Under the pieces are notes generated by a model. That model worked only from the letters and a program-made list of their open reading frames with translations. It made no database searches and was not told the origin of the DNA. A stretch of 64,000 nt of DNA from Bacteroidia bacterium (GTDB lineage: Bacteria; Bacteroidota; Bacteroidia; Flavobacteriales_D; Cryomorphaceae), in the NCBI GenBank assembly GCA_030427905.1, contig JAUICL010000002.1, forward strand, positions 372,001-436,000. Direction: 5' to 3'. Positions within the stretch are counted from its first letter, which is position 1. Each line of letters begins with the position of its first letter. Below are positions 41,989 through 53,983 of this stretch, one piece after another. The position numbers and the translations under genes were made by a program.

Positions 41989-42074
41989 GACGCTAGTTCC
42001 TATCCAATATTGTCATTCAAATGACAAACCAATAGCATTCAAAGGTGTTATCTTGGGGTCAAAATCTGAAACCA

Positions 42075-45000
42075 ATGAAAATAACATCTACCCTGAAATG
42101 GGCAGTGCTTTGCTGTTGCTGCTTGGCAATCAATTCTTTAATGGCTCAAGGCTATGCCGTAGTTCAGACCAATTGGTCGGAGATCAATGAAGTGACGGCA
42201 ATCAGTCTATCGGCAGACGAACCCCAAATTCAAGCCAAAAAGGCCGGGTACTACGAGCTCGACTTCAATTCAGTTTATGCCAATTTGCTGACGGCCGAAG
42301 ACGACGATTTGATTAGAATTCCAACGGTGAATGGTGGGTTTATGGATCTCGTTCTGACCGAAAATACCACCATGTCGCAAGGACTGAAGGAAGCCTATCC
42401 TTCTATTCGTTCATTTAACGTAGTGACACCGATGGGCCGCAATACTTGGGGGAAACTGGATGTTTCGCCAAAAGGGCTCCGCGTGATGCTTATGCGACCA
42501 GGTAAATCGACGGTTTACCTCGATCCAGTGTATCAGCACCAAACCAACGTGTATATGGTGTATGAACGCAGCGAATTTTTCACCGACAAATCAATGGATT
42601 GCCACGTGAATGGGCGAAATACGGTAGAGCATGATCACGCCAAGGCCGGAGACCCATACAACGACTGTGAGCTCAAAACGTACCGATTGGCCGTAGCCGC
42701 CACAGGTGAGTACACGTCCTTTCACGGTGGAACGGTCGAAGATGCGTTAGCTGCTATGATTACTACGATGAACCGTGTTATCGGCGTTTACGAACGCGAT
42801 TTCGGGGTGAGCTTCACACTTATCGAAAATGTCACCGACATCATCTACACCAACGCTGCTTCAGATCCATATACCAATGGAAACCCCGGCGCAATGATTG
42901 GTGAAAACCAAACCAACATCGATAATGTCATTGGTTCTGCTAACTACGATGTAGGACACGTATTTGGAACCAATAGCGGTGGACTTGCTGGGCTGGGCGT
43001 GACCTGCTCCAACGGACAGAAAGCGCGTGGTGTAACCGGTAGCGCGGCTCCGGTTGGTGACCCATTTGATATAGACTACGTAGCACACGAACTTGGACAC
43101 CAATTTGGTGGAAACCACAGTTTCAACAATGCCTGTGGCGGAAACCGAAACAACGGAACGGCTGTAGAGCCGGGGAGTGGTTCATCGATTATGGCTTATG
43201 CCGGGATTTGTGCTCCCAATGTTCAGAACAATAGCGACGACCACTTTCACGGAGTGAATATGCGCGAGATCGGAATCGAAATTTCAAACGATAACTGCCC
43301 GGTGGTGAGTCCGGTTGACAATGTAGCACCCGAAATTGGTGATCTCGCAGAAGTGCAGTACATCCCGATTGGAACGCCATTTCTCCTGGCCGCTCCAGCT
43401 ACCGATGCTGATGGCGACTCGTTGACTTACTGTTGGGAACAAATGGATATCGAGATTTCAGATCAACCACCAGTAGGAACTTCCACAGGTGGTCCAAATT
43501 TTCGATCAAACTCGCCAACACCCGATTCTATTCGGTACTTCCCAACGTTGGAGACCCTTGCCAGCAATGGCCCGTTTACCTGGGAAGTGGTGCCTACTGT
43601 GGCGCGCGAAATGAACTTCAGAGTTTCGGTTCGAGATAATTTTGTCGGTGGTGGTTGTACCCAGTACGATGACATTGCTGTACAGTCGGTAGCTGAAGCT
43701 GGGCCTTTCGTTGTGACTTATCCTTCGGCTTTCGGAATTTCATGGGATGCTTACGCTTTTGAAACCATTACTTGGAATGTGGCGAATACAACCGCAGCGC
43801 CGCTCAACGCCGATTTGGTAGATGTTTTTCTTTCCATCGACGGGGGAGAGACCTACGATATTTTGCTCGCTGACGATACAGAAAACGATGGTGAACTAAC
43901 GATTCAAGTTCCCAACATCGATACAGAAGATGCCCGTGTGATGGTCATCAACTCGGCGGGGACATTCTTTGACGTTTCAAACAACGATTTTGAAATCAAT
44001 GTGATCGACAACGGGTTTTACTTCAACACGACTTTTGTAGGCGAAGAGCTTTGCCAGGGAAATGAAGTGAACTTCACAGTGGATGTTGTGGAGATAGGTG
44101 TTTTTGGAGATGAGATTGATATCACAGTAACAGAAGAACCCACCAATGGGGAGCATATATTGAGTCAGGATGTGGCCGTGGTAGGCGACGCCATCGAAGT
44201 GACTATCAATGGACTGGACGATACACCAGCTGGGGTGTACAATTTTACCTTGACAGGAACGAGTGGTGATTTCTCAAATAGCATTTCATTCCCAATAGCT
44301 GTTGAGGATGCCAACCCGCAGCCTGCTTCGCTTTCTGCACCCGAAGATGAAGCCACAGCCTTGCCGCTCGATGTGATTCTTTCTTGGGAAGACAACTTGA
44401 CGGTGGGGATGACCTACACCATGGAGCTGGCTACTGATCAGGATTTCACTAATATTATCGATACGCAAACTGGACTCACTGAGTCGAATGCGATAGCCGA
44501 AGGACTGGATTCAGAAACGACCTACTTCTGGCGCGTAAGCAATGTGACATCTTGCGCTACATCAGCGCCTTCAGATGCTTTTAGCTTCACCACCTTTATT
44601 TGCGAAACTGATATCAACGATACCGAAACGGTGATTCCTAGTGATAAACCGGCTGAGATTCTCTCGCAGATTAGTATCGAGACAGAAGCTGTGGTAGCCG
44701 ATGTGAATGTGCTAAATGTAGAAGGAAGTCACCCGGTGATGTCTGAGCTGGCGTTCAGCCTGATCAGCCCTACGGGTACTGAAGTGTCCTTGGCCAATGG
44801 TCTTTGCGGATTGAATTTGACCATTCAGACCAATGGTGATGTGGATGTATCAACACCAGGCACCATTGCTGGATCTTACGAGTCTTCTGGAGCTGCCGAC
44901 TTTGGGGGCAATATTCCCGCTGGTGGCTTGAGTGGTACTGTTGTGCAAGCCTTCGATGGATCTGCCAATCCCGAAGAGCTTTGTAATGCAGCCGTTAACG

Positions 45001-45707
45001 GTGATGATATCGATGGTAATATTGCCATTATCATGCGTGGAAATTGTCCGTTTGTCGACAAGGTGCTCAACGCCCAAGACGCAGGAGCCATTGGGGTGAT
45101 TATTGTCAATAATATTCCCGGAGATGGATTCTTTGATATGGGCGGAACTTCTACCCAAATATCCATTCCTGCCGTGATGATGAACTACGAAGATGGAACC
45201 CTTTTGATCGACAACCTCGGTGGCGATTCGGAAGGCTTCGCCTTTAGTTTTGACGACGATGCATTGGAATTCGATATTCCTTGCCCTGCTACAGATGGTG
45301 GTACCTACGTTCCAGCTGAAGCACTTTCGGTTTTCAACGGCGAAAATGCCATGGGGCAGTGGACCTTAAAGGTGGTAGACTCCAAGACTGGAAATGGTGG
45401 TTCTTTGGACAATTGGCAGCTCGATATCTGCTTCTCTGACGAGGATGTAGACGGACTTGAAGAACTCGCTTCATTCCAGTCGTCGGTTTATCCAAACCCG
45501 ACATCGTCTACGCTTACCATCGCCCTTGAGAATCTAATAGCAGACCGTATTCGAGTTTGGGATATAGCTGGAAGGCAACTAGCTTCGGCGAATCCTTCCA
45601 CTAGCATGACGGAAATAGATATGTCTCGCTTCGAGTCGGGCGTTTACTTCGTTGAGATCGAAGTAGAAGGGTACAAGGCCGCGGTGCACCGCATCGTCCG
45701 CCAATAG
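42075..45707 (+). CDS. secreted reprolysin-like zinc metallopeptidase with T9SS sorting domain
   Basis: About 1210 residues from the ATG at 42075 (signal peptide ...CCCCLAINSLMAQ). A propeptide-like region is followed by a catalytic domain whose zinc site is HELGHQFGGNH (H338, H342, H348) with a downstream SSIMAYAG Met-turn, as in reprolysin-like M12B peptidases of Bacteroidota. Then come Ig/FN3-like regions, a PA domain (RGNCPFVDKVLNAQDAGAIGVIIVNN), a proprotein-convertase P domain split around it (SEIL...VNVLNVEGSHPVMSELAFSLISPTGTE and MGQWTLKVVD), and a type A sorting domain (SVYPNPTSSTLTI ... VHRIVRQ). It would be secreted and degrade extracellular protein. Confidence 0.9.
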   Translation: MKITSTLKWAVLCCCCLAINSLMAQGYAVVQTNWSEINEVTAISLSADEPQIQAKKAGYYELDFNSVYANLLTAEDDDLIRIPTVNGGFMDLVLTENTTMSQGLKEAYPSIRSFNVVTPMGRNTWGKLDVSPKGLRVMLMRPGKSTVYLDPVYQHQTNVYMVYERSEFFTDKSMDCHVNGRNTVEHDHAKAGDPYNDCELKTYRLAVAATGEYTSFHGGTVEDALAAMITTMNRVIGVYERDFGVSFTLIENVTDIIYTNAASDPYTNGNPGAMIGENQTNIDNVIGSANYDVGHVFGTNSGGLAGLGVTCSNGQKARGVTGSAAPVGDPFDIDYVAHELGHQFGGNHSFNNACGGNRNNGTAVEPGSGSSIMAYAGICAPNVQNNSDDHFHGVNMREIGIEISNDNCPVVSPVDNVAPEIGDLAEVQYIPIGTPFLLAAPATDADGDSLTYCWEQMDIEISDQPPVGTSTGGPNFRSNSPTPDSIRYFPTLETLASNGPFTWEVVPTVAREMNFRVSVRDNFVGGGCTQYDDIAVQSVAEAGPFVVTYPSAFGISWDAYAFETITWNVANTTAAPLNADLVDVFLSIDGGETYDILLADDTENDGELTIQVPNIDTEDARVMVINSAGTFFDVSNNDFEINVIDNGFYFNTTFVGEELCQGNEVNFTVDVVEIGVFGDEIDITVTEEPTNGEHILSQDVAVVGDAIEVTINGLDDTPAGVYNFTLTGTSGDFSNSISFPIAVEDANPQPASLSAPEDEATALPLDVILSWEDNLTVGMTYTMELATDQDFTNIIDTQTGLTESNAIAEGLDSETTYFWRVSNVTSCATSAPSDAFSFTTFICETDINDTETVIPSDKPAEILSQISIETEAVVADVNVLNVEGSHPVMSELAFSLISPTGTEVSLANGLCGLNLTIQTNGDVDVSTPGTIAGSYESSGAADFGGNIPAGGLSGTVVQAFDGSANPEELCNAAVNGDDIDGNIAIIMRGNCPFVDKVLNAQDAGAIGVIIVNNIPGDGFFDMGGTSTQISIPAVMMNYEDGTLLIDNLGGDSEGFAFSFDDDALEFDIPCPATDGGTYVPAEALSVFNGENAMGQWTLKVVDSKTGNGGSLDNWQLDICFSDEDVDGLEELASFQSSVYPNPTSSTLTIALENLIADRIRVWDIAGRQLASANPSTSMTEIDMSRFESGVYFVEIEVEGYKAAVHRIVRQ

Positions 45708-45963: not shown

Positions 45964-46456
45964 TTTCTCGCAACTAGCAGATGTCCTTCCTGTGATTCAC
46001 TAACAGCGGTGAACTTGAATTGTTGAGTCGGAAAATGTATTGGGGGAGAATTGGTTGAAGGTAATTTGTTGCCTTAGCTAAATACACGTGGAAGGTCAGC
46101 TAAAGGGGGCGTCTTTTATTTCTTAAATTTCAATAAAGGGAAAATCACTAATCGAGACTAGGACTCTGAATATAATAGATGAATACGTTTTGAATCTGCA
46201 ATGAATTTTTGAACCTGTTTAGATCAGGCCTACATTATTACACACATTACAGATATACTGGTTATTTAGTTTTCTGATAGGGATTTAGGGTTGAGCCCCC
46301 ACAAGCACAAACTAGCAATCTGCTTATGAAGATATAGTAGAAATGGAGTATTAACAATCATATTCTTGATTATTTCAAAAAACTATGATATTGTTTTGTG
46401 TAAATTTGATTTGATTTCGATAACAATACCAGAAGAATTTAACTAATAAAATAGCA
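45964..46456. other. gene-free AT-rich stretch at the left edge of the island
   Basis: About 490 bases with no supported gene. It begins where the ohr remnant loses similarity, includes the degenerate terminator-like repeat at 46090-46118, and then becomes strongly AT-rich up to the HIT-like gene. I see no terminal inverted repeats or attachment duplication. Confidence 0.6.
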
Positions 46457-47056
46457 TTGAACCATTTTTTTAATAGTCTTGATTGTGACCGTACCCTAAT
46501 TGAGTCTGAAAATTTTAAGGTAATCCCTTCACTAGGCTCAATAATACCGGGTTGGTTGTTGGTAGTTCCAAAGGAGTTTAAGCTAAATTTTAGTGAACTA
46601 TCTGTGGAAGAAGTGATTGAACTTGAGAGTCTTGTTAGTAATGTCAAGGAGCACTTCTATCATTTATTTGATACGAGGGGTGTGGTTTTCGAGCACGGTC
46701 CAAGGGTTCTTAACACGAAAGTAGGCTGCAGTGTAGACTATGCACACCTTCATGTTGTTCCAATAGAATTGAGTTTAGAATTGATTTTTGAGTATGGTGA
46801 TCACCGATTAGATTGGGTTCAAATTAGTGGACTGAGTCAGCTAAATGAAATGAGTATTAAGGATTCAGGTTATTTGTATTTCAGAGATACAGAGAATTTT
46901 CATTATGTCTCTAGTGATGGTGATATTCCAAGCCAGTTTTTTCGTCGAATAATAGCCAATCAAATGGCTGTACCAGAAAAGTTTAATTGGAAAGAATTTC
47001 CTTTTCTGGAAAATGTATCCAAAACATTGAGCAGTTTTGACTCTATCAAAGTATAG
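46457..47056 (+). CDS. HIT-family hydrolase-like protein
   Basis: A 199-residue protein starting at TTG 46457. The first ~105 residues have HIT-family features: PGWLLVVPKEF (the usual GHxLVxPK strand), then DYAHLHVVPIE with H97-x-H99. The classical motif is H-phi-H-phi-H; the first His is replaced by Tyr/Ala positions, so two of three histidines remain. HIT proteins hydrolyse or transfer nucleotide phosphates. The C-terminal ~95 residues are unassigned. Two bases separate its stop from the membrane gene, so the three island genes form one operon. Confidence 0.7.
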   Translation: MNHFFNSLDCDRTLIESENFKVIPSLGSIIPGWLLVVPKEFKLNFSELSVEEVIELESLVSNVKEHFYHLFDTRGVVFEHGPRVLNTKVGCSVDYAHLHVVPIELSLELIFEYGDHRLDWVQISGLSQLNEMSIKDSGYLYFRDTENFHYVSSDGDIPSQFFRRIIANQMAVPEKFNWKEFPFLENVSKTLSSFDSIKV

Positions 47057-47058
47057 GT

Positions 47059-47628
47059 ATGGAGTCTGAGATTGGTCAAGAAAAGGAAGTTTCCGGATTC
47101 GCTCCAGATGATCCAACTGATGGACGAGAAAAAGGGCAGTGGGCAACTAGATATGATTCAATCGCAACTAAACATATTTTTGGGGAAGCTTATTATTTGG
47201 GAGGAATATTTCTCTTAGATATAGTTTTGATTTTTTATTTAGCTACGGACTGTCTTACGAGTATTTGCGATAATGAATCATTAAAGATTTACGGTTTAGC
47301 ATGGCTAGGTGGAACACTTGGCGGAACTCTATTTTCTATTAAGTGGCTTTATCATTCAGTAGCACGGAACTTATGGAATTTTGATAGGAGGTTATGGAGA
47401 ATTTTCACTCCACACATTTCTGGTGCTTTGGCGTTTATGATGGTTATTTTGGTTTCTTCAGGTATAGTATCAGTTTTTGATGAAGATTCTATCTACAATG
47501 CCAGAACAACTTTGGGATTTGGCTTTTTGGTTGGGTATTTTTCAGACACAGCAATTGGAAAACTCTCCGAAGTTGCTGCGACATTTTTTGGTTCGACAGA
47601 AAAGCATGGTCTGAAGCACAAAAAGTAA
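47059..47628 (+). CDS. hypothetical multi-pass membrane protein
   Basis: A 189-residue protein with a polar N-terminus of about 40 residues and about four hydrophobic segments (GGIFLLDIVLIFYLA, YGLAWLGGTLGGTLFSI, ISGALAFMMVILVSSGIVSV, LGFGFLVGYFSDTAI). The end is charged (FFGSTEKHGLKHKK). Not a family I recognise. In a system with a nucleotide hydrolase and a nucleotide-acting fusion protein, a small membrane protein could be the effector that damages or signals through the membrane, as in several anti-phage systems; this is inference. Confidence 0.6.
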   Translation: MESEIGQEKEVSGFAPDDPTDGREKGQWATRYDSIATKHIFGEAYYLGGIFLLDIVLIFYLATDCLTSICDNESLKIYGLAWLGGTLGGTLFSIKWLYHSVARNLWNFDRRLWRIFTPHISGALAFMMVILVSSGIVSVFDEDSIYNARTTLGFGFLVGYFSDTAIGKLSEVAATFFGSTEKHGLKHKK

Positions 47629-47662
47629 TACGCGGATTAAGTGATGACTAAAAGTTCCCTCT

Positions 47663-50176
47663 ATGAATTCTAAAAAGTTTTTCTTAAATCCTAATGAGAG
47701 CGACGACTTAGATAGAATTGGAACCAAGGCATTTAATCTGCTGGGCTACACTGATTTTACTCCTAATTATTTCGTGGTAAGTAGCGAGCTTTATCAGAAC
47801 TGGCAAATCGATGAAGTGTTGGTGTCACGATCTTTGTCAAGCCAGTTAACTAGCCTAGTTGCCCAAATTCAACGTAGGGGTGCGAGAGCAGTAATTGTCA
47901 GATCAAGCTGCACGGATGAAACTATTAAAGATCGAGGCAAGTTTCTGAGTCTAAAGTGTGATGCAAATGTAGATAGCATAAAGGATACGATTATAAGTAT
48001 CTACGAGGATTTTGTTGCTAAAACCGAACAGTCTGGCTCAGTACTCGCTTTGATCATACAAGATTATAAGCCCCCCAAACTTCAAGGACATTTATCGAAT
48101 GAACGACGAGTAGGGAAGGAGAAAGATACCTGGAAGATTGAGAAAGAGAATGTGTCATCTGAAAATATTGAAGTTGCAACTATCAAGGCCGAGAACAAAA
48201 AGACAGAGTTAGATTTATCGCTCAGGAGTTGTCTTAATGCGCATACTTTGACCAAGCACCTAGAACTAACTGCTTCAATTTTTACCCAGTTAAAAGATCG
48301 GTTTCACCTTGAATGGTTGTGGGATGGTGTGAACTTTTGGTTGCTACAGATTGATATTGAAAAGGCTCAAGGCGATAATTCAAAACCAGGGTCTGAGTGG
48401 TTTAAGTCATTAAAAAGTAAAAAGTTAAGGTTAGGAAAGGGAAATGATGGTTGGACCCCCGAAGTTTTCGAATCTTTAGGTACTTCAAGCACCGAATGGC
48501 ATAAAATAGAGTGTCTTAGAACTTTTTCTAAATGTGATTTGGATTTTTGGGATATTTTTATTCTCGAGAATGAATTTATCATAGAGAAGTTGATATCGGG
48601 TGAAATTGATATTCAGTTGAGTTCTGACTTACGGAGGTTAATTCAAAGCCCAATAACCATCAGGACTGACAAAAAGTCCGAACAAGAAGTCTTGCTTCCT
48701 AGATCTGATACAATTTTCAACTTTGATGAGGCTGTGGAATTTTTGATTAAGACTTCAAAGGAGTTAGCATCAAAAGGTTTAAAATCTGGCCAGTTTTGTT
48801 TTCTAATTCATCATTTTGTTATTTCTCGTGCGGGTGCTTTGGCTTTCTCTAAACCCAATATTGATAAGGTTCGCATTGATTCTACTTGGGGAATTGTAGA
48901 GGGCTTGTATTACCATCCTCATGACTCTTTCGAATTAGATGTTCGAAAGAATAAGTTGCACAAGAAGATTAGATGTAAATACAAGTATATTGACGTCAAC
49001 GAAAAGGGGGGGTGGTACTCAAAAAAATCAGGTGAAGTAATAGATTGGCGTCAATCGTTGACAAAGAGGCAGATAGAGAAGATTGCTGAGCAAACTAGGC
49101 GAATTGTTGAATTCTTGAATAAGCCAGCTACAGTAATGTTCTTCGTTAACGATTCAAGAAGCTCACTGCCAGAAGTGCTCCCTTGGTATTATTCTATTGA
49201 TGAGATTCCTGAGAAAAAAACGAATTCCACTGAAATTTTCTTTTCTGATAAAAGTGAGTTGATTGAAACGAAATCTGATTTTGACGGCTTCAAGAGTTTT
49301 GTTGAAGGTAAACAACAGGAATCTAAGAAGTTTAAGATAAGACTTAATCTTGGAACTGAGATTATTCGCGACATTCAATTGATTGAGGATATTTCTTCAT
49401 TTTGCGTAGACCATAATATTGTTGTTGATATAGAGGGCTCCATTCTTTCACACCCTTATTACGTTTTGAGTTCTAATGGTGTGCAGGTTAATTGTATTGA
49501 CCCGTTGGAATTGAATTATAATCAACGTGAGTTTTATAAATTAGTGCGAGATGAAATTCCAGTAATAATTCAAAGTAACGACGAATCTGTGCGAGCGGTA
49601 AATGTCTCACCTGAAATTCTTATTCAAATGTTGAGAGAAAAAGTGGTCGAAGAGGCTCTTGAGATGTATTGGAGTGAAAGGAATGATGAATTAATTGAAG
49701 AAGCGGCAGATGTTTTGGAAGTTCTTTTAGGGATTTGTAGGTCCTTTGGAATCGAATTCTCTGAAATCATGGATATCGCCAAGAAGAAAAAAGAAAGACG
49801 AGGCGGATTCGATAAAGGTGTTTTTCTTATTGCGTCTAAGGAAAATTCTTTGTTTGAAGTTGTTAAAGATGGGAGCAAGAACAAACTTTTTAGTCACTCG
49901 GATTCACATCAAATTGATGCTAAGCAAAGTCGTATCATTAAATTTTTTAAGTCAGATGGAATAGAGAATTTTAAGTCTCTTACTGAGGTGTCATCATTCA
50001 AATTACCTTATGTGAATAATTATGCTAGTAAATCGCATAGTTTTAGGTATTTGCTGAAGGATGATGATTACAAGACCGTTCTTGTAGAATATGGTGAAAA
50101 AGATATATCTATTAAGTTTGAAAATGAAAACGACTGGAAAAACGATAGTGATCAGCTAAATGTTTTTGATTCTTAA
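47663..50176 (+). CDS. PEP-synthase/PPDK-like ATP-binding and MazG pyrophosphohydrolase fusion
   Basis: An 837-residue protein. The N-terminal ~230 residues resemble the nucleotide-binding domain of PEP synthase and pyruvate phosphate dikinase: IGTKAFNLLGY at the start, then VIVRSSCTDE (V79-R80-S81-S82) with the following KGKFLSL-type loop. There is no swivelling His domain of the classical enzyme that I can place. The central ~380 residues are unassigned. Residues ~620-715 form a MazG-like all-alpha NTP pyrophosphohydrolase: KLVRDEIP (626-633), EExxE (E663-E667), ExxD (E680-D683) and the KKERRGGF end. Last gene of the island operon. Base use is AT-rich, unlike the following dnaE2. Confidence 0.72.
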   Translation: MNSKKFFLNPNESDDLDRIGTKAFNLLGYTDFTPNYFVVSSELYQNWQIDEVLVSRSLSSQLTSLVAQIQRRGARAVIVRSSCTDETIKDRGKFLSLKCDANVDSIKDTIISIYEDFVAKTEQSGSVLALIIQDYKPPKLQGHLSNERRVGKEKDTWKIEKENVSSENIEVATIKAENKKTELDLSLRSCLNAHTLTKHLELTASIFTQLKDRFHLEWLWDGVNFWLLQIDIEKAQGDNSKPGSEWFKSLKSKKLRLGKGNDGWTPEVFESLGTSSTEWHKIECLRTFSKCDLDFWDIFILENEFIIEKLISGEIDIQLSSDLRRLIQSPITIRTDKKSEQEVLLPRSDTIFNFDEAVEFLIKTSKELASKGLKSGQFCFLIHHFVISRAGALAFSKPNIDKVRIDSTWGIVEGLYYHPHDSFELDVRKNKLHKKIRCKYKYIDVNEKGGWYSKKSGEVIDWRQSLTKRQIEKIAEQTRRIVEFLNKPATVMFFVNDSRSSLPEVLPWYYSIDEIPEKKTNSTEIFFSDKSELIETKSDFDGFKSFVEGKQQESKKFKIRLNLGTEIIRDIQLIEDISSFCVDHNIVVDIEGSILSHPYYVLSSNGVQVNCIDPLELNYNQREFYKLVRDEIPVIIQSNDESVRAVNVSPEILIQMLREKVVEEALEMYWSERNDELIEEAADVLEVLLGICRSFGIEFSEIMDIAKKKKERRGGFDKGVFLIASKENSLFEVVKDGSKNKLFSHSDSHQIDAKQSRIIKFFKSDGIENFKSLTEVSSFKLPYVNNYASKSHSFRYLLKDDDYKTVLVEYGEKDISIKFENENDWKNDSDQLNVFDS

Positions 50177-50308
50177 TGCAATTTTCTTGCATTTTCTTTA
50201 GTAACCATATTAGCACGTTTTTTGAGTCATGTTGTATCGATAGTACTTGTTGTGAATCATTAAGTTTACTAGCCTATTGACACTAATAAAAACATCAAGC
50301 TAAAAATA

Positions 50309-50363: not shown

Positions 50364-53345
50364 ATGTTTCCTGTGCACTCCTATTACTCGTTTAAGTACG
50401 GTACGTCTTCGCCCGAAGAAGTAGTGGAGCTGGCTGCGGCTAACGATTACGACATGGTTTTGCTGTCGGATATCAACTCCACGGCGGGCACCATCAATTT
50501 TGTGCGCATTGCCCAGAAGCGGGGTCTCAAGCCCATTGTGGGTATCGACTTTCGAAATGGGGTGGCGCCCTGTTTTTTGGCTCTAGCCAAGAGTCCCGAA
50601 GGCTATGCGGAGATCAATGGCTACCTGTCGGAGTTTTTGCACTCGGGAAAATCCATCCCCGAGCGGGCACCTGAGTTTAGGGATGTCTACGTGATCTATC
50701 CCTTTGCGCAGGTGAGCGATAGGCCTGATCTGGTGCTGCGGCCGTATGAGTACGTGGGCGTGCACCACCGCGATCTGGTGCGGCTCTCGCGCTCGGGTTG
50801 GGCCAAGCGCCGCGATAAACTCGTGATGTACCGACCCTTTAGCTTTCAAAACAAGCGCCAGTTTAACGCCCACCGCCTGCTCCGCGCCATCGACAAGAAT
50901 ACCCTGCTCTCCATGCTTCCCAAGTCGGAAGAAGGGAGCCCCGAAGATGTTTGGATCCACCGCAATGAGCTGATGGCCGTCTATGGCGAGTTTCCGCAAT
51001 TGATCGCCAACACCATTCAGATTCTCCAGGAGTGCCGCATTTCATTTGAGTTTGGCGATGCCTATCCCCACAAAAACCAGCGCACCTACACCGGGTCTTT
51101 GGAAGAAGACAATGCCCTGATCAGGAAGCTCTGCGATGAGAATCTCTCGTACCGCTATCCCAACGCGGACGAAGACGTGTACAGACGGCTGGAGATGGAG
51201 CTGGAAGTGATCTCTCAAAAGCAGTTTGTGTCCTATTTTCTCATCAACTGGGACATCACCAAATACGCTCGCGAGCAAGGCTATTTCTACGTGGGGCGGG
51301 GGAGCGGCGCCAATAGTATGGTGGCCTACGTGCTTCGCATCACCGATGTAGATCCCATCGAACTCGATCTCTACTTCGAGCGGTTTATCAATCTCTACCG
51401 GAAGAATCCACCCGACTTCGATCTCGACTTTTCATGGCGCGACAGGCCCGATGTGACGCGGTATATTTTCGAGCGGTTTCCACACGTTTCGCTGCTGGCC
51501 ACCTACAATACCTTCCAGTACCGAGCCGTGGTCAGGGAACTGGGAAAGGTGTTTGGACTTCCCAAAGCCGAGATCGATGTGCTCACCACAGGCAAGTTTG
51601 ACGCATCGAAGCTCGATGAGCTCTCGGTTCTCGTCTTGCGGTACAGCCAGCTTATTCACGGTTTCCCTTCGCACTTGAGCATTCACGCCGGTGGAATTCT
51701 GATTTCCGACCAGCCCATTGCCAATTATTCGCCCACGTGGATGCCGCCCAAGGGTTTTCCTACGGTGCAGTTTGATATGGTGGTAGCCGAAGATATCGGG
51801 CTATACAAGTTTGATATTCTCGGGCAGCGCGGGCTGGGAAAGATCAAAGATGGGCTAGCCATTGTGGCGGAGAACAACCCAGACGATCCGGCTATTGATA
51901 TCCACGACATCAAGCGGTTTAAGGAAGACAAAGCCGTAGCCGAGTTGGTTCGGAATGGCGATGCCATTGGGTGTTTTTACGTGGAAAGTCCCGCCATGCG
52001 CATGCTCATGCGAAAGCTACAGGTGAAGGATTACTTGGGGCTGGTGGCGGCGAGTTCGGTGATACGTCCTGGTGTGGCGCGATCGGGTATGATGCGGGAG
52101 TTTATTTTGCGGTACCGCTTTCCGGAAAAGCGCGAAGACGCCCACCCCATTATGCAAAAGATCATGCCCGATACTTACGGGGTGATGGTGTATCAGGAAG
52201 ATGTGATCAAGGTGGCTCACTACTTTGCCGGGCTTACCCTGGGCGAAGCCGATGTCCTGCGGCGGGGAATGAGCGGTAAGTTTCGCTCCCGGGATGAGTT
52301 TGCGAAGGCCCGCGATAAGTTTTTTAGCAATTGCATAGCAAAAGGCTATACCCAGGAGCTTACGGCTGAAGTGTGGCGACAGATCGAGAGTTTTGCCGGC
52401 TATGCCTTTGCCAAAGGGCATTCGGCGTCTTATGCGGTGGAGAGCTACCAGAGCCTTTTTCTCAAGGCGCACTATCCGCTCGAGTACATGGTGGCTACCA
52501 TCAACAACGGCGGGGGATTTTACAGCCGCGAGTTTTACCTCCACGAAACGCGGATGAAGGGAGGGGAGATTCTCGCTCCGTGCATCAATACCAGCCTTCG
52601 CGAAGCGGTTATTCGCGGAAAGCAAGTGTTCCTGGGCTTCGGGATGATTCACGCCCTGGAAGACGAGACAATCTACCGCATACTCAAATCGCGTAGAGAC
52701 GGCGATTTTGAGAGCTTGGAAGACTTTTTGGACCGCGTACCCATCGGTGTTGAGCAAATCGATTTACTCATCCGGATCGACGCTTTTCGGTTTACGGGAA
52801 AACACAAACGCGCCCTGCTTTGGGAAGCGCGTTTCAAGATAGACCCCACGGCGCGCAAAGACTGGGAGCAGCCCGACTTATTTAAGGAACCGCGCAAAAC
52901 ATACGAGCTACCATCTCTGGCCCGCACGGCCTTTGAAGACGCTTTTGACCAGATCGAGCTGCTGGGCTTCCCACTTATCGATCCCTTTGAGCTGACTGAA
53001 GGCGCTCCGGTAAACTGTGTTTTGGCTGAAAGCCTGCCCTCGCTCATTGGGCAGGATGTAGAAGTGTTGGGCTACCTCGTGACCCGCAAGACCACCACCA
53101 CGGTAAAAGGCGACCGGATGGCTTTTGGAAATTTTACCGATGTGCGGGGTGCCTTTATCGATACCGTTCACTTTCCCGATATCATACGGCGCTACCCCTT
53201 TCGCGGACGGGGCGTCTACCACATTCGGGGGCGGGTTATCGAAGAGTTTGATTGTATCAGCATCGAAGTGAGCTATATGGAGCGGGTTAAGCTTATCGAA
53301 GATCCGCGCTACGCCGATTTGCGTACAGCGGAAGCGAAGGGGTAG
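50364..53345 (+). CDS. dnaE2: DnaE2-like (error-prone type) DNA polymerase III alpha subunit
   Basis: A 993-residue alpha subunit, shorter than the ~1150-1400 of replicative DnaE. Domains: degenerate PHP (about 1-220; starts MFPVHSYYSF, so the usual HxH is reduced to one His), palm with PDFDLDF (D351, D353), thumb and fingers (YVGRGSGANS, FAKGHSASYA), and an OB domain near 900-960. Proofreading by an inactive PHP is not expected. In Bacteroidota such alpha subunits take part in mutagenic repair with ImuA/ImuB, but no imuAB lies adjacent. A replicative dnaE end is at 3-530. Higher GC than the island to its left. Confidence 0.85.
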   Translation: MFPVHSYYSFKYGTSSPEEVVELAAANDYDMVLLSDINSTAGTINFVRIAQKRGLKPIVGIDFRNGVAPCFLALAKSPEGYAEINGYLSEFLHSGKSIPERAPEFRDVYVIYPFAQVSDRPDLVLRPYEYVGVHHRDLVRLSRSGWAKRRDKLVMYRPFSFQNKRQFNAHRLLRAIDKNTLLSMLPKSEEGSPEDVWIHRNELMAVYGEFPQLIANTIQILQECRISFEFGDAYPHKNQRTYTGSLEEDNALIRKLCDENLSYRYPNADEDVYRRLEMELEVISQKQFVSYFLINWDITKYAREQGYFYVGRGSGANSMVAYVLRITDVDPIELDLYFERFINLYRKNPPDFDLDFSWRDRPDVTRYIFERFPHVSLLATYNTFQYRAVVRELGKVFGLPKAEIDVLTTGKFDASKLDELSVLVLRYSQLIHGFPSHLSIHAGGILISDQPIANYSPTWMPPKGFPTVQFDMVVAEDIGLYKFDILGQRGLGKIKDGLAIVAENNPDDPAIDIHDIKRFKEDKAVAELVRNGDAIGCFYVESPAMRMLMRKLQVKDYLGLVAASSVIRPGVARSGMMREFILRYRFPEKREDAHPIMQKIMPDTYGVMVYQEDVIKVAHYFAGLTLGEADVLRRGMSGKFRSRDEFAKARDKFFSNCIAKGYTQELTAEVWRQIESFAGYAFAKGHSASYAVESYQSLFLKAHYPLEYMVATINNGGGFYSREFYLHETRMKGGEILAPCINTSLREAVIRGKQVFLGFGMIHALEDETIYRILKSRRDGDFESLEDFLDRVPIGVEQIDLLIRIDAFRFTGKHKRALLWEARFKIDPTARKDWEQPDLFKEPRKTYELPSLARTAFEDAFDQIELLGFPLIDPFELTEGAPVNCVLAESLPSLIGQDVEVLGYLVTRKTTTTVKGDRMAFGNFTDVRGAFIDTVHFPDIIRRYPFRGRGVYHIRGRVIEEFDCISIEVSYMERVKLIEDPRYADLRTAEAKG

Positions 53346-53371: not shown

Positions 53372-53983
53372 TTAGGCCCTGCCGTACTCATGCACTTCAA
53401 TAAAATTCTCCAGGTCGTCAAGGATCTTTATGCACTCTGACCTTGAGAGCCAGGTGTCGCTTTTTGAGACCAGCTCTCCATACGAGCTAAACTCCCAGCC
53501 ATCCATACTCGCAGCGAGATTTGCTTCCATCGCGTTTCGGTGGATGTAGAGTAGGGTGTTTTTGAGTTGGTGCTGGCTGGAAATTGGGATGCGATTGTAT
53601 GCGTGAATAAACAAACTGCCCATTCTATTATACTGCTTGTTGTACGCCTTCGCATAAGAATTGAAGAAATTGCTGAATTGTTGGGTGGCAAAACCTTGGA
53701 GATTTGAAAAATCTCCAAGGTTTGCGCGCGGAGTCCGCAATTTCTTCTCATAAGCTTCTAGCAACTCCATTTCGTTTTTAACCCTCACCAACATGTGAAA
53801 GTGATTCGGCAGCAAGCAATAGGCATAGGTGTGCACGATTGGCGTGATATACTTCTTATACCTTCTTAAGAAGAACTTATAATTCTCCGTATTGCGAAAC
53901 AAGAGCTCACTACCGTTCGCTCGGTTGTAGATGTGGTAAAATCTATCTGGTTCTAATTTCGATTTGTAGTCTCTCATTCTCAA
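53372..53983 (-). CDS. REP-associated tyrosine transposase (RAYT, Y1-type)
   Basis: A 203-residue Y1/HUH transposase: FYHIYNRANGSELLF at the start (RNxG-like loop), the metal-binding HUH motif in LLPNHFHMLVR, and the helix carrying the catalytic Tyr in NSYAKAYNKQY. This is the size and layout of single RAYT proteins, which act on REP palindromes and are usually not flanked by IS ends. Its coding sequence contains a 15-bp-arm palindrome in the segment NLGDFSNLQGF. No other copies of the transposase are in the window. Confidence 0.9.
   Translation of the reverse strand: MRMRDYKSKLEPDRFYHIYNRANGSELLFRNTENYKFFLRRYKKYITPIVHTYAYCLLPNHFHMLVRVKNEMELLEAYEKKLRTPRANLGDFSNLQGFATQQFSNFFNSYAKAYNKQYNRMGSLFIHAYNRIPISSQHQLKNTLLYIHRNAMEANLAASMDGWEFSSYGELVSKSDTWLSRSECIKILDDLENFIEVHEYGRA
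53691..53723. repeat. REP-like palindrome inside the RAYT gene
   Basis: AAACCTTGGAGATTT (53691-53705) and AAATCTCCAAGGTTT (53709-53723) are perfect 15-bp arms around a GAA loop. It lies in frame within the RAYT coding sequence and resembles the CCTTGGAG/CTCCAAGG palindromes scattered in Bacteroidota genomes. Confidence 0.85.

Follow-up and report, generated by a model that had tools for sequence, protein, structure and literature searches.

A tandem PPDK/RPH-type ATP-binding and MazG fusion protein marks a cassette of patchy distribution

Comparison across genomes shows that in the product of gene 3 two PPDK/RPH-type ATP-binding modules are followed by a small domain in which a histidine is invariant, then by a MazG-type domain and a clamp-binding-like tail, and that this gene is the signature of a patchily spread cassette of three to four genes. 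The features of the cassette in the window, by which we mean the whole stretch of 64,000 nucleotides that was analysed, are collected in Table 1. We tentatively read it as a mobile conflict cassette, most likely directed against phage, that acts on nucleotides at replication forks with its large enzyme docked at the replisome, and put the chances of this reading at a little short of even.

Table 1. Cassette features in the window, numbered from its first nucleotide
Feature	Position	Strand	Extent or detail	Evidence
Low-GC island	46000..50200	.	33-39% GC vs 45-51% on the left and 53-57% in the adjoining 3 kb on the right	
Gene 1, HIT-fold protein	46457..47056	+	199 aa	Pfam HIT below cut-off, conservation
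Gene 2, membrane protein	47059..47628	+	189 aa, at least 2 hydrophobic segments	ORF, hydropathy
Gene 3, fusion protein	47663..50176	+	837 aa	ORF, homologues, AlphaFold2 model
Module 1, PPDK_N/RPH-type ATP-grasp nucleotide-binding module	47696..48367	+	residues ~12-235	Pfam, fold, profile alignment, residue conservation
Module 2, second PPDK/RPH-type nucleotide-binding module	48455..49210	+	residues ~265-516	fold, profile alignment, residue conservation
Putative reduced swivelling phosphohistidine domain	49250..49507	+	residues ~530-615; H597 codon 49451-49453	conservation, whole-model alignment
MazG/PRA-PH-type all-alpha NTP pyrophosphohydrolase domain	49526..49828	+	residues ~622-722; KLVRD + EExxE...ExxD	Pfam, conservation
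Beta-clamp-binding-like motif QLNVF	50153..50167	+	residues 831-835	motif search; relaxed pattern only

Architecture of the fusion protein

The initial annotation, which is partly confirmed in its observations, described gene 3 as a fusion of a PPDK/PEP-synthase-type ATP-binding domain with a MazG-type domain. The reading frame is real, a single run of 837 codons on the forward strand, and both ends resemble the named families, the N-terminal one in Pfam and fold comparison and the MazG-type one in Pfam. Relatives covering the phosphotransferase part occur at 22 loci in genome contigs and on one plasmid; a search of the genome contigs with the window protein alone returned none, and they were found when the alignment served as query. 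The identical architecture recurs in independent genomes, and a chance ORF or an assembly fusion can therefore be rejected. For all three cassette proteins residue counts refer to 22 loci (the window, L006-L024, L026 and L028), to the exclusion of L025 (truncated 5'), L027 (a fragment) and the plasmid copy L002, while L004 and L005 are the same contigs as L007 and L008. The AlphaFold2 model of the fusion protein has a mean pLDDT of 73 and a pTM of 0.60.

The PPDK-type reading of the N-terminus held up in a fold comparison, in which residues 3-234 superimposed on the nucleotide-binding domain of PPDK (5jvl_C; Z 15.7, rmsd 3.1, 200 residues aligned); an N-terminal fold unrelated to this family, which would have refuted the initial annotation, was thus not what the model predicted. 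Pfam PF01326 (PPDK_N) matches residues 151-240 with an E value of 8.1e-6 and 25.8 bits, slightly below the cut-off of 27, and is recovered by sequence at E <= 1 in only 6 of the 22 homologues. K22, R80, E86, Q133, E217 and Q229 of module 1 are each present in 22/22 sequences, and the first two correspond to the nucleotide-site residues Lys22 and Arg117 of RPH in a register given by profile alignment. That alignment places module 1 in register with the reference set at P 3e-4, with an hhalign probability of just 40%. The set consisted of 14 mechanically picked ORFs of more than 740 aa, two of which are the same gene and some of which are perhaps not PEP synthases; an earlier set, comprising five PEP synthases and two dikinases of near relatives, was too narrow. 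Searching the PDB with a profile of all 22 fusion proteins recovered no PPDK or RPH chain, only a weak MazG-like one (7by7, E 0.36).

The ~380 residues that follow had been described as unassigned, a description that the model overturns, since it resolves them into module 2 and a small alpha/beta domain. Model residues 266-514 match the ATP-binding domain of RPH (5hv6_A; Z 19.0, 242 aligned), and K281, R334, W409, G410 and K439 are each found in 22/22 sequences. K281 and R334 retain the nucleotide-site pair, the equivalence of K281 being read by eye, and the position of the canonical metal-ligand glutamate is occupied, in our own alignment, by Met492 (22/22). The profile alignment of module 2 with the reference set is weak (P 0.018, probability 2.5%), and direct alignment of the two modules (P 0.029 across 81 columns) is too weak by itself. 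It is the predicted folds that assign both modules to the ATP-grasp-type nucleotide-binding domains of the PPDK, PEP synthase and RPH family. In that family the nucleotide site is followed by what we take to be a characteristic LQxRP motif; its arginine is absent here, module 1 having LQ-x-D (D231 in 20/22) and module 2 PW.

The small domain that follows is a candidate for the swivelling phosphohistidine domain, earlier described as not evident, and that description is now doubtful. G592 and H597 are invariant (22/22), and fold alignments of the whole model end at residues 614/615 on RPH 842/843; as the end pairs 615-843 and 614-842 are ungapped, H597 falls on His825, the catalytic histidine of RPH as given in PMC4844700. 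Against this, PF00391 matches 0/22 members, and the isolated domain, modelled fairly confidently (pLDDT 81, pTM 0.71), retrieved no PEP-utiliser domain among the matches listed (Foldseek best E 0.038), while in VIA the top-ranking folds were those of RNA/radical-SAM methyltransferases (Z 8.5 and 8.1), alongside further alpha/beta proteins. The profile alignment to the reference set covers just 13 columns (P 0.3). The domain may be a reduced phosphohistidine swivel domain.

The initial annotation saw no evident PEP-binding domain either, and none appeared in Pfam scans of the window protein or, at E <= 1, of the 22 members. Indeed, no acceptor-binding domain, be it a PEP/pyruvate barrel or a RIF-binding domain, was among the Pfam matches of these members at that threshold, and the fold searches were dominated by the ATP-binding modules. 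These data bear on the view that the protein is a small-molecule or antibiotic phosphotransferase resembling RPH or HpeHI within a detoxification or resistance cassette. Such a function would fit the closest solved folds, RPH and HpeI, the former of which confers antibiotic resistance according to PMC4844700. It is, however, very unlikely, given that the Pfam scans found no domain to bind the acceptor and that no clear role would be left for the MazG domain, the clamp-like motif, the DNA methyltransferase and the membrane protein.

The MazG-like region had been placed at the C-terminus; the domain is real, but it is not terminal, being followed by ~115 poorly conserved residues and then a conserved end motif. 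Pfam PF01503 (PRA-PH) matches residues 653-709 with 25.9 bits, over the cut-off of 21.3, and the metal-binding acids E663, E664, E667, E680 and D683 are kept in 22/22 sequences. Among the homologues PF01503 is below cut-off in L010 and L012, absent in L022, and matched at E <= 1 in 12/22 members; L015 and L022 were left out of the MazG sub-alignment, which thus comprises 20 sequences. The profile match together with the ExxE...ExxD ligands places the domain in the MazG/PRA-PH family. Stand-alone KLVRD homologues occur in genomes (L045), plasmids (L003) and viral contigs (L212), and the frames of 96-114 codons at the viral loci L145, L147, L150 and L166 also stand alone. An origin of the fusion as a phage auxiliary gene was considered and appears unlikely: the best 80 of 125 viral-contig relatives match the MazG region alone (widest query span 581-816) and none matches the ATP-binding modules, while two queries against phage records gave no match. 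Some matches reached back to residues 581-614, as a swivel-MazG fusion might, but the seven checked all stand alone.

The conserved end motif resembles the sliding clamp-binding motif, which PMC11139829 places in a disordered tail with the form Q-aliphatic-x-[LM]-[FL] or Q-aliphatic-x-[LM]-x-[FL]; the motif in the window has valine in place of the published leucine or methionine. Excluding L015, which is cut at its 3' end, the published pattern ends 12 of the 21 complete tails (shuffle mean 0.40; 0/5000 shuffles) and the relaxed pattern 20 of the 21 (shuffle mean 1.0; 0/2000 shuffles), figures which, like the permutation results below, are not strict probabilities because the sequences are related. 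Counting against the motif, the published pattern also turns up six times among the other 17,439 residues of these fusion proteins. Neither pattern was found in 142 flanking proteins (0/142), a loose control made up of mechanically picked ORFs of at least 120 aa, of which some may not be genes and others are truncated where a contig stops. From the recurrence of the motif the tail is a candidate for binding the sliding clamp.

The cassette and its genomic setting

Genes 1, 2 and 3 follow one another in this order on one strand at all 23 loci with upstream DNA (24 were examined, including the window, and L025 is cut). The HIT profile (PF01230) matches gene 1 with an E value of 0.0017 and 19.4 bits, below the cut-off of 21.5; of its homologues, that at L021 scores above cut-off (25.7 bits) and that at L012 has no Pfam match. 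In the HxHxH-type motif H97 and H99 are kept, the first position being Tyr in the window and His in 17/22; H97, H99, E79 and G81 are found in 22/22. Profile and motif together place gene 1 in the HIT superfamily, and the catalytic-type residues of module 1, the MazG domain and the HIT protein are conserved in 22/22. Gene 2, whose hydropathy peaks span residues 40-58 and 115-133, has no Pfam match and shows 17 invariant columns across 22 sequences. When identity-distance matrices are compared between the three proteins, each pair is correlated (0.64, 0.68 and 0.77; 0/2000 permutations each).

A D12-type adenine methyltransferase with a DPPY/DPPF motif adjoins the cassette at 16/24 loci (Pfam-checked in 3 of the 16), and at L024 it sits between genes 2 and 3. 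It might be argued from this association that the cassette is a restriction-modification-type system, in which methyltransferase and phosphotransferase would modify host DNA or dNTPs and the MazG and HIT proteins would clear unmodified or by-product nucleotides. There is, however, no adjacent methyltransferase at 8/24 loci, counting L015, where the contig ends and presence is undecidable, in a search that used the short pattern RYPG[GAS]K on mechanically chosen ORFs and may miss diverged members; the genome of the window has no D12 match; and no nuclease gene was seen in the cassette. We consider such a system quite unlikely.

The cassette ranges from Bacteroidota to Pseudomonadota and Nitrospirota, and is present in 3/395 genomes in a sample of the phylum. 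Mobile elements lie close by in several cases, with an integrase near L007 and L011 and a resolvase near L024 and L025, and a Caulobacter plasmid bears a copy named just 'nucleoside triphosphate pyrophosphohydrolase'. Around the low-GC island of the window only short imperfect direct repeats were seen, none convincingly bracketing the cassette. A blastn search of E. coli with one homologue, a weak test at such divergence, gave no match. This distribution must be set against the view that a clamp-docked MazG enzyme rids the vicinity of the fork of dNTPs that are damaged or modified, under regulation by the ATP modules, and so serves fitness and not immunity. Pool sanitation of this kind is consistent with the complete set of metal ligands in the MazG-type domain, with the clamp-binding-like tail and with the housecleaning of 5-OH-dCTP reported for mycobacterial MazG (PMC3855555). 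Patchy spread, a low-GC island and mobile neighbours would nevertheless be unusual for housekeeping, which also leaves the constant membrane protein and the frequent DNA methyltransferase unexplained, and we regard sanitation as unlikely.

Relatives of the membrane protein outside the cassette adjoin SIR2-like genes at L134 and L135, lie near FRG and DUF4062 genes at L131, and on two plasmids follow a WYL gene in the neighbourhood of E2/E1/JAB genes, identified by Pfam at L075 and by annotation at L076. Eight membrane-protein loci lie outside the cassette, and at five of them (L128, L129, L130, L132 and L133) no defence neighbours were recognised by eye; the membrane-protein match itself was not among the ORFs picked at L133. 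Genes 2 and 3 have no matching model in PADLOC-DB 2.0.0, and the one match to gene 1 is at chance level (E 0.021). The 142 flanking proteins matched 60 PADLOC models at 1e-8, 25 of them listed, a number that has no matched control set beside it. Twenty of the 142 were scanned singly, of which 18 had no match and two did: a UvrD-like helicase at L018 (45 models) and a mad3/mad8-like protein at L021 (4 models). Pfam matches in the flanks are largely to ordinary genes, judging from the 25 of 115 families listed. Single PADLOC matches to PDC-M11B, Cas4-like nuclease and SspB models were also observed when the 142 flanking proteins were pooled.

Proposed mode of action

The initial annotation is correct about the domain fusion; on the function it proposed, the sensing and removal of modified nucleotides, the data speak neither for nor against. 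It did not take in the context of the fusion protein, namely the HIT protein, the membrane protein and the frequent methyltransferase, or the clamp-like tail, and these change the most likely role of the protein. In a conflict cassette the tail would tether the fusion enzyme to the sliding clamp, where module 1 would spend ATP, probably converting it to AMP as dikinases do, to charge an acceptor that may be His597, while module 2, whose metal site departs from the usual one, might hold a second nucleotide or an acceptor. The MazG domain would cleave NTPs or dNTPs, including the product or a cue that comes from foreign replication, and the HIT protein would remove the nucleotidyl product; in what order these reactions would proceed is conjectural. 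The membrane protein would act as effector or anchor, and the methyltransferase, where present, could mark self DNA, a function that cannot be general because the genome of the window lacks a D12 match. A fuller version of the conflict reading, possible although doubtful, is an undescribed immune system in which the clamp-docked two-module dikinase-type and MazG enzyme monitors foreign replication and makes or destroys a HIT-controlled nucleotide signal, acting through a dedicated membrane effector, while in many lineages self would be marked by the adenine methyltransferase.

If correct, the conflict reading would link PPDK/RPH-type phosphotransfer with the pyrophosphohydrolysis of NTPs and with attachment to the replication clamp, all within a mobile cassette. 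Neither this link nor a description of the cassette was found in the literature searched, which took in few subscription papers. With such a system one could test directly whether bacterial immunity stations enzymes that destroy nucleotides or make signals at the replication fork, and it would add a membrane-protein family found in some genomes next to conflict genes of the SIR2 or ubiquitin-like kind. Should the function turn out to be sanitation, the tandem arrangement of ATP-binding modules and the clamp-like tail would still provide leads for annotation, for example of the Caulobacter copy.

Comparison with known systems

DefensePredictor lists MazG among uncharacterised defence domains (PMC13092281); the part of that source available to us does not describe this fusion, its HIT partner or the membrane protein. 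PPDK and PEP synthase share with module 1 the fold and the K, R, E and Q signature positions, but differ in domain order and number, in the PEP/pyruvate-binding domain that Pfam does not detect in the fusion, and in the LQxRP arginine that Asp231 replaces. The two-component aryl dikinase HpeHI resembles the fusion protein in the fold of HpeI (9goj; Z 19.0, 250 aligned) and in a swivel motif, T/SxxGGxxxH, that overlaps GGxLSH in the fusion. In HpeHI, however, the ATP-binding part is a separate protein and the acceptor is aromatic, as described in PMC12167813. The fusion family, by eye, lacks the T/S of the motif, and has GG in 13/22.

A likeness spanning more than one domain is seen with RPH of Listeria (RPH-Lm; PDB 5hv2, 5hv3 and 5hv6), in that residues 265-615 of the fusion protein align with 5hv2 (Z 21.9, 315 aligned, rmsd 4.0). 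RPH has one ATP-binding module, whereas the fusion protein has two, carries a MazG domain and a clamp-like tail, and shows no recognised RIF-binding domain. In our alignment Met492 stands where RPH has Glu297, and the E297A variant of RPH is reported to be active (PMC4844700). Small stand-alone MazG/PRA-PH proteins have the same KLVRD start and EExxE...ExxD ligands, in contrast with which the domain described here is fused to phosphotransferase modules.

A conserved cassette with a patchy distribution

A profile scan of genome contigs returned 65 loci, comprising 22 matched across the phosphotransferase part of the fusion protein, one fragment (L027) and 42 matched only around the MazG domain; the 22, together with the window and a Caulobacter plasmid, make up the 24 loci considered here. 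Wherever upstream DNA is present (23 of 23 loci), the fusion gene follows a HIT-like gene and then a membrane-protein gene, always in that order and on one strand, and the divergence pattern is common to all three cassette proteins. Hosts, going by the record titles, include Paludibacter, Mucilaginibacter, Kapaibacterium, Burkholderia cenocepacia, Dyella, Nitrospirae, Acidobacteria, Elusimicrobia, Kiritimatiellales, Desulfobacteraceae and Caulobacter. Within the phylum sample 3/395 genomes carry a match, the window's own genome counted, and no match was found in a first sample of 59 other genomes. L007 and L011 have a phage integrase nearby, L024 and L025 a resolvase. The GC content of the window's island is 33-39%, against 45-51% leftward and 53-57% across the next 3 kb rightward. 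To its left is a gene for a metalloprotease-like protein (HELGHQFGGNH motif, by eye); directly to its right comes a high-GC gene which, by eye, encodes a DnaE-type alpha subunit of DNA polymerase III, with a transposase-like ORF after it. Small KLVRD-type MazG proteins are frequent in genomes and on viral contigs (L029-L070, L136-L215), standing alone in the seven loci read.

A D12-type adenine methyltransferase gene adjoins the cassette in 16 of the 24 loci (DPPY in 14, DPPF in two), either before it, behind it or, in L024, between the membrane-protein and fusion genes, and the three of these enzymes that were checked all match Pfam MethyltransfD12. It could be argued that the cassette is a modification system, a reading we consider quite unlikely; the neighbour was not seen at the window, the Caulobacter plasmid copy, L006-L009 or L026 (the contig of L015 ends there), and the window genome lacks a MethyltransfD12 match.

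Coordinates of the features discussed, by window or locus
Feature	Location	Strand	Length (aa)
Metalloprotease-like gene	window 42045-45707		1220
Fusion gene	window 47663-50176	+	837
DnaE-type gene	window 50364-53345		993 (by eye)
Transposase-like ORF	window 53372-53983	-	
Fusion homologue	L022:7752-10649		965
Membrane-protein relative	L134:4246-4884		
Membrane-protein relative	L135:6279-6962		
Plasmid membrane-protein relative	L075:5902-6504		
Plasmid membrane-protein relative	L076:6043-6519		
Cassette-adjoining gene	L021:3226-5133	-	636

ATP-binding modules and a candidate swivel domain

In the fusion protein Pfam PPDK_N matches residues 151-240 (E 8.1e-6, slightly below cut-off), while residues 399-527 match the NCBIfam PigC, PEP-synthase and rifampin phosphotransferase (RPH) models (E 2.5e-6 to 0.035, far under cut-offs) and phmmer aligns RPH chains to residues 379-507 at E 0.19-0.34, which alone is not significant. 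The same kind of domain is thus matched by two separate stretches, suggesting a duplication. Family-wide sequence evidence for PPDK/RPH-type domains is thin: PPDK_N reaches E <= 1 in 6/22 homologues, and a PDB search with the profile of all 22 found no PPDK or RPH chains.

An AlphaFold2 model built from the alignment of 22 fusion proteins (mean pLDDT 73, pTM 0.60) was compared with the PDB. The top Foldseek matches were RPH 5hv3 (E 5.5e-11), HpeI 9goj (6.4e-10) and PEP synthase 2ols (1.4e-7). By VIA-align, RPH 5hv2 matched residues 265-615 (Z 21.9, rmsd 4.0, 315 aligned), the RPH ATP-binding domain alone (5hv6_A) residues 266-514 (Z 19.0, 242 aligned) and PPDK 5jvl_C, through its nucleotide-binding domain, residues 3-234 (Z 15.7, rmsd 3.1, 200 aligned), followed by ATP-grasp enzymes from other families at Z about 10-11. 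By these matches of the model the protein has two PPDK/RPH-type ATP-binding modules. Profile alignment covers nearly the whole of module 1 in the correct register (P 3e-4, probability 40%) and gives weak support for module 2 (P 0.018, probability 2.5%). All 22 sequences share the module 1 nucleotide-site residues K22, R80, E86, Q133, E217 and Q229. Module 2 keeps K281 and R334, and in our alignment Met492 occupies the expected position of the metal-ligand Glu in 22/22; this is no proof that the module is dead, since RPH remains active after Glu297 is replaced with alanine, according to the part of PMC4844700 consulted. That the cassette serves small-molecule phosphotransfer, as the RPH matches might suggest, appears very unlikely.

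An alpha/beta domain follows (residues ~530-615), in which G592, L595 and H597 are present in 22/22. Structure alignments supplied end pairs only, with no residue-by-residue pairing. For PPDK 1dik, 2dik and 1kbl the end pair 614-472 puts H597 at residue 455, which we take to be the catalytic His. PMC4844700 gives 425 for PPDK, so this line for H597 depends on 455 being the catalytic residue; the same kind of comparison with 1ggo is off by one. Whole-model alignments with RPH end at pairs 615-843 and 614-842, which without gaps would place H597 on His825, the catalytic His of RPH in the same paper. Other results count against a swivel domain. Predicted in isolation the domain has pLDDT 81 and pTM 0.71, and no PEP-utiliser domain was found among the matches listed to known folds. 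PF00391 matches 0/22 family members, profile alignment covers 13 columns only (P 0.3), and the motif T/SxxGGxxxH, as given in the part of PMC12167813 consulted, is partly present (GG in 13/22, T/S missing by eye). On an approximate estimate the middle domain is somewhat more likely than not to be a swivel domain. We infer ATP-to-AMP chemistry, a role for H597 and a division of labour.

MazG-type domain and C-terminal tail

Pfam PRA-PH matches residues 653-709, exceeding its cut-off. K626-D630 (KLVRD), E663, E664, E667, E680 and D683 occur in 22/22, and these residues are those that, judged by sequence, would be expected in an active metal-dependent pyrophosphohydrolase. The L022 homologue has a long insertion within this domain. 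The ~115 residues behind it are poorly conserved, with mostly low pLDDT, and complete homologues end in a Gln-led hydrophobic motif (QLDLF, QLSLF, QLNLF, QLELF, QLKLF, QLEIEF and others). The published beta-clamp-binding pattern, taken from the part of PMC11139829 consulted, occurs in 12/21 complete tails (shuffle mean 0.40; reached in 0/5000 shuffles), and six times in the remaining 17,439 residues of the same proteins; a relaxed form occurs in 20/21 (shuffle mean 1.0; 0/2000), the exception being L018 (QLDLPMF). The window's QLNVF satisfies only the relaxed form. Neither form was found in the last 40 residues of 142 flanking proteins or of the HIT and membrane proteins (0/22 each), and the relaxed form was found in 0/16 methyltransferases. 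The motif has a mean majority-residue share of 0.68, the remainder of the tail 0.29-0.36. The tail may bind the clamp. Fork-local nucleotide sanitation would accommodate a pyrophosphohydrolase with such a tail, and we regard it as unlikely.

Neighbourhood and possible function

The membrane-protein profile matches 10/296 genomes, including two cassette carriers. Among eight non-cassette loci, two (L134, L135) have an adjoining SIR2-like gene, L131 has an FRG gene and, farther away, a DUF4062 gene, and SIR2/FRG-like neighbours were not seen in five. A relative is present in 97 plasmid records; in the two plasmid loci read besides Caulobacter it lies behind a WYL gene, with a metallohydrolase and a JAB-type protein close by (E2, ThiF and JAB domains by Pfam in L075). 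Both plasmids are conjugative. The relatives next to SIR2-like genes and those on these plasmids may belong to a broader family of membrane proteins associated with conflict systems. The 142 flanking proteins matched 60 PADLOC models at 1e-8; of 20 scanned singly, two matched (L018, L021), and three further single matches were among the 25 models listed. The L021 protein, adjoining the cassette, matches mad3 (E 7e-51), mad8 and AriA. Since few singly scanned proteins matched and the flank Pfam families are, among the matches listed, mostly ordinary, classical defence-island evidence is inconclusive to weak.

The anatomy of the cassette, its conservation and its patchy spread are established by these comparisons. 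The cassette may act in defence, and we tentatively prefer a nucleotide-centred conflict system at the replisome to the three alternatives, reserving the leftover odds for an explanation outside these four. Neither a PADLOC-DB model nor a literature description of the cassette was found, nor a report of tandem ATP-binding modules, MazG and a clamp-like tail within a fixed cassette; every single kind of domain in it is already known.
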